A stretch of 64,000 bases of DNA, from positions 62,001 to 126,000 of the forward strand of contig NZ_AHZV01000182.1 of the NCBI RefSeq assembly GCF_000250735.1, in the 5' to 3' direction. The notes beneath the pieces are model-generated. The model was given only the letters and a program-made list of their open reading frames with translations. It had not been told where the DNA came from and ran no database searches. The position numbers and the translations under genes are program-made. This DNA is from Anaerophaga thermohalophila str. Valhall (GTDB lineage Bacteria; Bacteroidota; Bacteroidia; Bacteroidales; Marinilabiliaceae). Shown piece after piece: positions 3,164 through 54,384 of this stretch (its first letter is position 1; each line of letters opens with the position of its first letter).

Positions 3164-3633
3164 ATAGTGAAATTTAGGTTAGTTTATACAATAATGTCTC
3201 GTAACCCTGCTTTAAGTTAATGAGAAACCTTTCAAAAAGCAATCTGTTAGACCTATCTTAAAAATGTTTTTTTGTCAGAAACAGGGTACAAGGGATGTTA
3301 AACCAAATCTAATCAATTGTTAATGTGAATTTAACCTGCTTTCTGCGCAATAAAAATTGGCAAAAAGTGACTTTTTGGATTGAACTCATTAAAGTTTGAC
3401 AGGTATAATAAGACAAAAAAATCCTTCCTGCCCCTGACGCGTTATCAACAACCGGTTCAAATAATGTCAACCAGCAACACAACAGGCTGTTTCAACCCAA
3501 AAGCTCTGGCAAACTAAGACCCTCTTTTTTAATGATTTATTTCGCCCCCAACGTCACCAACTCCGAAGCAATTCCTTTACTGTGATATTAAAGATAAAAA
3601 ATAATTTCCGGAAGCTAAAATTTTTGTTAATTA

Positions 3634-3756
3634 GTGTCTGTCCATAAAGTGCCATTTACTGTGTTACGCTCGTCCGAAAATTACTCATTTACGATGAGTA
3701 AACTCCGTATTTTCGGACTTCGCAGGCCTTGTAAATGACACTTTCTGAACAGACAC
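3634..3756 (+). repeat. R1 palindromic element, copy A (MITE-like)
   Basis: 123 bp bounded by GTGTCTGTCCATAAAGTG and CACTTTCTGAACAGACAC. These ends form an imperfect 26-bp terminal inverted repeat (3 mismatches) running inward through CATTTAC/GTAAATG. Inside lies a second perfect stem GTCCGAAAAT/ATTTTCGGAC. A second copy in the opposite orientation is at 54067-54188. It encodes no protein. It may be a non-autonomous mobile element or a structured intergenic element; no matching transposase is in the window. Confidence 0.8.
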
Positions 3757-3789
3757 ATAATAAGTAGGAATCCTTTCCTACTTTATATA

Positions 3790-3926
3790 CAATACTCAGT
3801 TAAACTTTTGCAGATGACTGGCAATTAATTGTTTAGATAATTAATGGTGCAAATCACAACTCTCTCATAATAAAAACTTTGCGTCATTGCGTCTCAGAGT
3901 TAAGATTTTTTTAACTGACTATTGAT
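3790..3926 (+). repeat. R2 dispersed intergenic repeat, copy A
   Basis: About 130-bp element. One end is close to GTTAAACTTTTGC; then come a variable AT-rich middle and a right half containing ACTTTGCGTCATTGCGTCTC and ending TTTTTAACTGACTATTG. Related copies are at 5790-5920 and 35596-35730, with right-half-only copies at 8083-8140 and 41722-41760. The outer ends are short inverted repeats (GTTAAA/TTTAAC). Confidence 0.7.
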
Positions 3927-3944
3927 ATACAAACACTATATAAA

Positions 3945-41578: not shown

Positions 41579-41783
41579 AAAAAATTTGTTTATTAAGGTC
41601 GAATGGAACTCGCATGAAAGCATTTATACAGATCCTTATTGTTGCAATCCTTGCCATGCTCGTTTCATTAGTAGATAATTTTTCTGAGTTACTGGTCTGC
41701 TGGAACCCGCATGAAAGTATTTACACCTCTGCGTTTAGGCTTTTTTAAACTGACTATTAACTTTATGGACAGACACTATTTAA
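41579..41783. repeat. R4 repeat units, R2 right half and R1 end
   Basis: 41579-41723 holds one full and one partial R4 unit: GGAACTCGCATGAAAGCATT, TATACA, CCTTGCCATGCTCGTTTCAT and, again, GGAACCCGCATGAAAGTATT. Then 41722-41760 is the right half of R2 (CTCTGCGTTTAGGC, TTTTTTAAACTGACTATTAA), joined to the outer end of R1 (ACTTTATGGACAGACACTAT). Confidence 0.65.
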
Positions 41784-53975: not shown

Positions 53976-54066
53976 CTTCATCCGTATAAAATTTGTTTAT
54001 CCAGGTCGGACAGCCTGCCCCTGTTTAGTGCGTGTCTATAAACTCGCAAAAATTTTCACAATATGT
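53976..54066 (+). repeat. R4 partial unit and R1-like end
   Basis: CCGTATAAAATTTGTTTATC and AGGTCGGA match the start of the R4 unit at 42838. GTGCGTGTCTATAAACTCGC at 54030-54049 matches an inverted fragment near 8135-8151. Confidence 0.5.
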
Positions 54067-54188
54067 GTGTCTGTTCAGAAAGTGCCGGTTGCAAGGCTTG
54101 CGAAGCCGCCAAAAACGGAGTTTATCTTAGTAAATGATTATTTTGGCGGCAAGCATAACACAGCAAATGGTACTTTATGGACAGACAC
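54067..54188 (-). repeat. R1 palindromic element, copy B (MITE-like)
   Basis: 122 bp, in the opposite orientation to copy A. The same outer ends (GTGTCTGTTCAGAAAGTG, TACTTTATGGACAGACAC). The internal stem is GCCGCCAAAA/TTTTGGCGGC, where copy A has GTCCGAAAAT/ATTTTCGGAC, so pairing is kept while bases differ. The segment TTATGGACAGACACTATTTA continues identically at 41764-41783. Confidence 0.8.
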
Positions 54189-54384
54189 TATTTATCGGGG
54201 GAACTCTTCCCGGGTAATCGGGACTTGTTTCTTCATGTAAAAATCCCTACCGATAATACATTATAAACTGCCATGCAGCAAAAATATTTCCCAAAATGAA
54301 TCAGAAAAAATACTTTTATACTTGTGTCTGGTAAAACCTGACTCATACTTTAAAACACAAAGATAATCATACCTTCGAAAGAAT
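54189..54384. other. Spacer upstream of the sigma-54-type regulator
   Basis: About 195 bases with no gene. TATACTTG at 54316-54323 is a one-mismatch -7 element, about 60 bases before the regulator's ATG; support is weak. Confidence 0.35.

Follow-up and report, generated by a model that had tools for sequence, protein, structure and literature searches.

R1, an imperfect palindrome with two copies in the window (the whole 64,000-nucleotide stretch of DNA that was analysed), is probably (about 0.7) a trans-mobilised MITE of ~163 bp that needs its hairpin core for propagation and belongs to an ERIC-like superfamily as its Bacteroidota branch. The element is built from the left end GTGTCTGTCCATAAAGT, a 123-bp foldback hairpin and a 40-bp tail that closes with the partner terminal repeat; a 6-bp TAWWTA duplication lies on either side. 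According to the mechanism we propose, a DDE-type transposase acting in trans would cut at the terminal repeats, and R1 would be inserted as double-stranded DNA into AT-rich intergenic sites. The core hairpin would be required for propagation, most simply as a DNA cruciform or hairpin recognised by a protein; a hairpin DNA intermediate is possible.

Copies in the window and borders of the element

A preliminary description of the window had reported two palindromes in opposite orientation, at 3634-3756 and 54067-54188. Both were recovered there, and their predicted DNA folds were far better than those of shuffled sequence (z -8.3 for copy 1; -4.8 on the minus and -7.5 on the plus strand for copy 2; 0/200 shuffles as good). 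The 10-bp inner stems (GTCCGAAAAT/ATTTTCGGAC and GCCGCCAAAA/TTTTGGCGGC) and the outer-stem swap of TTTAC/GTAAA to TTGC/GCAA were exactly as claimed. Of the shared ends, given as 18 bases, one measures 17 (GTGTCTGTCCATAAAGTA in copy 2). The palindrome drawn at 123 bp stood, but its length as a unit did not, since the true unit has 163 bp, including a 40-bp right tail; this tail, the 6-bp flanking duplications and a small repeat nested in the tail of copy 1 had been missed. Scanning the window with the core model described below returned copies 1 and 2 as the sole core matches, that of copy 1 spanning 3650-3743 with 106.5 bits. The features are as follows.

3634..3756, + strand: copy 1, 123-bp imperfect palindrome, subtype A (fold z -8.3; model match)
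3634-3650, + strand: left terminal repeat of copy 1
3672-3681 / 3709-3718, + strand: inner stem of copy 1
within 3634..3756, + strand: loops of copy 1, TGTGTTACGCTC and TTCGCAGGCCTT
3757..3789, + strand: first part of the 40-bp right tail of copy 1, ATAATAAGTAGGAATCCTTTCCTACTTTATATA
3930..3936, + strand: last 7 bp of the right tail of copy 1, CAAACAC, beyond the nested repeat
3628..3633, + strand: left target duplication of copy 1, TAATTA
3785..3929, + strand: nested second repeat (R2) including its flanking repeats; R2 itself at 3790-3924, ends CAATACTCAGTTAAAC / TTTAACTGACTATTG
54067..54188, - strand: copy 2, 122-bp palindrome, subtype B
54027..54066, - strand: 40-bp right tail of copy 2, ACATATTGTGAAAATTTTTGCGAGTTTATAGACACGCAC
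54189..54194, - strand: target duplication of copy 2, TAAATA; the opposite side, 54021-54026, reads TAAACA (5/6)
41758..41782, - strand: decayed third copy, left end GTGTCTGTCCATAAAGT only (41758-41776), with TAAATA outside, running into R2-like sequence

The right-hand duplication of copy 1 (3937-3942) reads TATATA, with 4/6 bases kept. R2 inside this copy is bounded by direct repeats of ATATA (3785-3789 and 3925-3929); when copy 1 is read without the insert, the tail measures 33+7 = 40 bp, for an element of 163 bp. R2 is itself MITE-like (135 bp in the window copy, with 5- to 6-bp duplications) and was repeatedly found inserted within R1 copies (window 3785-3929 and 41758, L009:804-1248, L103 and L095).

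When the flanks of R1 copies were aligned, the similarity extended ~40 bp past the right end of the 123-bp palindrome and ended at the inverted counterpart of the left end (ACTTTATAGACAGGCAC or a variant), giving an element of ~163 bp (mostly 162-164 bp) with imperfect terminal inverted repeats. These repeats were present in ~170 copies (left, GTGTCTGTCCATAAAGT; right, GTGCCTGTCTATAAAGT and variants), and the termini read GTG..CAC. Directly outside lies a 6-bp direct repeat with the consensus TAWWTA. The duplication was exact in 86 of 170 full-length copies, compared with a mean of 17.2 and a maximum of 32 when the right flanks were reshuffled, and it was confined to six positions, agreement one base further out being at background. 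Its informative middle positions agreed in 86-87% of the 170 copies versus 47-54% expected, and neighbouring R1 copies often have a single TAWWTA in common between them. In other genera, 16/28 copies carried an exact duplication (5.0 after shuffling, at most 10), and the TAWWTA duplication stays while the terminal repeats vary among genera (GTGTTTGTCCATAA or GTGTTTGCAAGAAAA types).

Copy number, hosts and the search for a transposase

The end motif GTGTCTGTNCANAAAGT, allowing at most one mismatch, matched the genome (4.54 Mb, 371 contigs) 899 times and the reversed control 0 times; with two ends per palindrome, this corresponds to ~450 R1 copies, or ~1.6% of the genome. A two-part motif gave 245 matches in the same genome versus 0 in the reversed control. 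Forty matches to copy 1, itself counted, were ~98-100% identical to it, and the amplification is therefore recent. Only 4 of 91 full-length copies lay in ORFs, compared with 66% of random windows, and these 91 showed no preferred orientation relative to neighbouring genes (++ 23, -- 24, -+ 10, +- 11).

R1 relatives were present in 15 of the 61 nearest genomes, the named carriers being Labilibacter, Natronoflexus and Salinivirgaceae, which would put the window within or close to the Marinilabiliaceae. A covariance model built on the 94-nt core of R1 detected the hairpin core, often in multiple copies, in 70/295 genomes and 55/184 genera of the order (probably Bacteroidales); the plasmids and phages searched gave no R1 match. 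Contigs of one draft genome (G640) often start or stop inside the hairpin, at about position 70, and such elements seem to break short-read assemblies and are probably more numerous than counted.

No ORF lies inside R1. The preliminary description had proposed looking for a transposase with matching ends, and none emerged: the PF01609 transposases of five genomes were without R1-type ends, and the stretches of the own genome that were examined (at most about 0.9 Mb) held no ORF-bearing element with R1 ends. A full-length autonomous version, sought by the end pattern, at PF01609 loci and by long-distance end pairs, yielded nothing beyond R1, nested R2 and tandem copies. The non-autonomous mobile element suggested earlier is borne out by the terminal repeats, the target duplications, the ~450 dispersed copies and the failure to find a transposase between the ends; a domesticated element, the other suggestion, gained no support.

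Covariation of the core and drift of inserted copies

Covariation was evaluated in 33 core sequences of the order, aligned to the covariance model, and an independent MAFFT alignment left the picture unchanged. Stem cells were paired in 94.1% versus 71.8% after shuffling, both sides had changed in 169 cells versus 55.9, and the covariation score was 0.532 versus 0.145 (0/500 shuffles), with at most 0.114 for slid partners. The 790 stem cells comprised 739 Watson-Crick pairs, 4 G-T, 12 A-C and 35 others. Conservation reached 87% and 94% in the internal loops around CTGCGTTACGCT and TTCGCAAGCCTT, compared with 67% in the outer and 75% in the inner stem, and CTGYGTT, TCAYKTAC..GTAMRCTCC and GCCTTG were nearly constant. 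Since conservation reaches much further for the core than for the terminal repeats, and the covariation of the core is almost purely Watson-Crick, the core would not be filler.

The selection on structure claimed from the two window copies is thus supported between lineages, but not for each genomic copy. Subtypes A and B have different stems, each complementary within itself; a few chimeric copies combine one arm of each subtype and have mismatched stems, and some copies exchange whole hairpins between outer frames. Stem changes without compensation, which the preliminary description had named as the case against itself, are common within the genome: we counted 97 distinct one-sided variants and few double changes, the latter mostly explained by subtype exchange. 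A-C exceeded G-T (85 vs 28) when every copy was counted, but the excess was gone once each distinct variant entered the count a single time and subtype exchange was taken out (31 vs 23, p 0.34), and a strand preference based on it was dropped. Because new stem changes are mostly one-sided and without G-T preference, inserted copies drift, and we infer that pairing is maintained only in the lineage that keeps transposing. As the stems covary, G·U is nearly absent and inserted copies drift, selection seems to operate at the DNA level on the lineage that moves, rather than on each copy as RNA. Separately, 64-bp R1 palindromes without the entire inner hairpin occur at L043:9911, L076:7968 and L081:1873, apparently through core loss, and an R1 relative on the reverse strand of L122 (about 2097-2230) has an extra small hairpin (CCCCGAAGAAAAATCGGGG) within the 3' loop AAGCC..CAGGCTT.

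R1 might instead be a plain IS MITE with a functionless hairpin, whose covariation stems from arm-to-arm copying by template switching and whose likeness to ERIC is convergence among palindromes. Terminal repeats and a target duplication suffice for movement, arm-to-arm homogenisation is possible in palindromes, and the chimeric A/B copies show recombination between copies. We nevertheless regard this explanation as unlikely: arm copying cannot hold unpaired loops constant, and few parts of the element are as well conserved over 55 genera as the loops; the new within-genome variants are one-sided, not paired; and the loop motifs match those of ERIC (0/100,000 shuffles).

That R1 encodes a structured RNA, whether a small RNA or an mRNA-stability hairpin as proposed for Yersinia ERIC, would explain its structure by an RNA function and fits the strong covariation and conserved loops; ERIC transcripts are reported to affect mRNA stability depending on orientation (PMC2229807). 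In the R1 stems, however, G-U fills 4 of 790 cells against 12 A-C mismatches, and among new variants G-T does not exceed A-C (23 vs 31). From a structured RNA one would expect a higher share of G-U. In addition, orientation relative to genes is unbiased, unpaired stem changes build up in inserted copies, and Rfam gave nothing above the curated threshold, the sub-threshold sX9 matches (best E 0.047) falling on loci of the second family (see below) only. The RNA alternative of the preliminary description is disfavoured by the near-absent G-U, the unbiased orientation and the lack of a meaningful Rfam match, and we consider it very improbable.

Movement of R1 as a REP/REPIN by a RAYT (Y1/HUH transposase) is practically ruled out: R1 shares with REPINs its hundreds of intergenic palindromes, single and clustered, and Y1_Tnp genes occur in its own genome and most R1-rich genomes, but R1 has terminal repeats and copy-specific target duplications, which Y1 transposition does not make, no copy lies near any of ten Y1_Tnp genes, the Y1 gene of its own genome is flanked by unrelated CCCGAAGGG palindromes, and the R1-rich genome G080 (89% complete) is without a Y1_Tnp match. 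A Y1 (RAYT-like) transposase gene of the same genome as R1, at L295:1279-1857, with flanking CCCGAAGGG..CCCTTCGGG palindromes, is likely to be part of a genuine Bacteroidota RAYT/REP pair unrelated to R1. Integron attC or tyrosine-recombinase sites seem less likely as well, as no attC boxes were seen by eye and copy-specific duplications suit a DDE transposase better.

Relatives beyond the order and likeness to ERIC

Relatives beyond the order bear on the proposed placement of R1 in an ERIC-like superfamily. With lower but still distinct scores (30-46 bits), the core model matched 29 genomes that belong to a second family within the same phylum group (core CTGCGTTGGGCGGTGCTCGAAATCCTCATGTAC..GTACACTCCGGTTTC..CGTCCGCCTTGC); this second family is probably Chlorobi. 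The loops CTGYGTT, TCAYKTAC..GTAMRCTCC and GCCTTG, together with their layout, recur in the second family, in repeats of E. coli and Comamonas and in published ERIC. Its ends, GGGCACCTCTAAAAA, were paired ~128-144 bp apart only, with no longer element at the listed places in eight genomes.

ERIC repeats were first recognised around 1990 and are described from enterobacteria and vibrios; we know of no mobilising enzyme identified for them. R1, with its clear 6-bp duplications, hundreds of recent copies and at least 55 genera, provides material for finding an ERIC-type mobilising enzyme. ERIC (PMC2759123, Table 1a) shares the parts of R1, their order and the fold: an outer stem, a CTGCGTT loop, an inner stem (CCCCAG/CTGGGG), an apical CTTAC/GTAAG hairpin between TCA and CTCC, the inner stem again and a GCCTTGC loop, the apical hairpin (TCACTTAC..GTAAGCTCC) standing in the order shared with R1. 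A loop-motif regular expression, composed from R1 and the second-family consensus after the resemblance had been noticed, was found in both published ERICs and in 0/100,000 dinucleotide shuffles; its GCCTTGC part agrees with the ERIC of E. coli and not with that of Salmonella, and neither RU-2 nor RU-3 has the motif. The R1 covariance model scored an E. coli ERIC copy at a non-significant 6.8 bits (E 0.61 in 1 kb). The link to ERIC therefore rests on the loop motif and layout, and we call R1 ERIC-like, not ERIC.

Like R1, ERIC (IRU, RU-1; 127 bp) is a long imperfect intergenic palindrome without a transposase and with high copy numbers in some genomes, 711 copies being reported in Photorhabdus (PMC10969869). 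The two differ in that the palindrome of R1 is followed by a 40-bp right tail and its target duplication is the 6-bp TAWWTA, whereas ERIC has TA-ended repeats and is reported to duplicate TA only (PMC2759123). Reports of ERIC come from Enterobacteriaceae and Vibrionaceae (PMC2759123, PMC10969869), and a 2024 review of prokaryotic MITEs, in which no Bacteroid- or Chlorob- name occurs, places it in these two families. YPAL and the RU-2 (168 bp) and RU-3 repeats are likewise small, palindromic and MITE-like, of similar length. IS-derived MITEs such as MITECca01, which derives from the IS982-type ISCca4 in Cardinium (PMC9769881), share with R1 the terminal inverted repeats, the lack of a transposase, multiple copies and a Bacteroidota host; for R1, no parent IS was found, and the interior rather than the ends is most widely conserved. 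A sequence-word search of the literature within reach, with most subscription journals outside it, returned primers and unrelated papers and no earlier description of R1.

Judged by the shared loops and layout, R1 would be the branch of Bacteroidota within a superfamily to which the enterobacterial ERIC also belongs. If so, ERIC would be one branch of a much older family, conserved in its folded core rather than its ends. It is conceivable, though doubtful, that Bacteroidota, the second family (probably Chlorobi) and Proteobacteria with ERIC share a single ancient superfamily of hairpin transposons without genes, and that the ends were exchanged while the DNA-hairpin core was kept because a widely conserved protein recognises it during mobilisation.

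E. coli and Aeromonas have intergenic repeats with a similar core, which was found in Comamonas as well. Repeats of ~150 bp with the core CTCGAAATCCTCAYGTAC..GTACGCTCCGGTTTC lie in intergenic regions at L258:990-1060 (E. coli, beside qseE/qseG), L259 (E. coli, ucpA-cysP) and L260 (Aeromonas), and were present in 2459/5426 E. coli genomes. They apparently represent another ERIC-like family, perhaps the RSA repeats.
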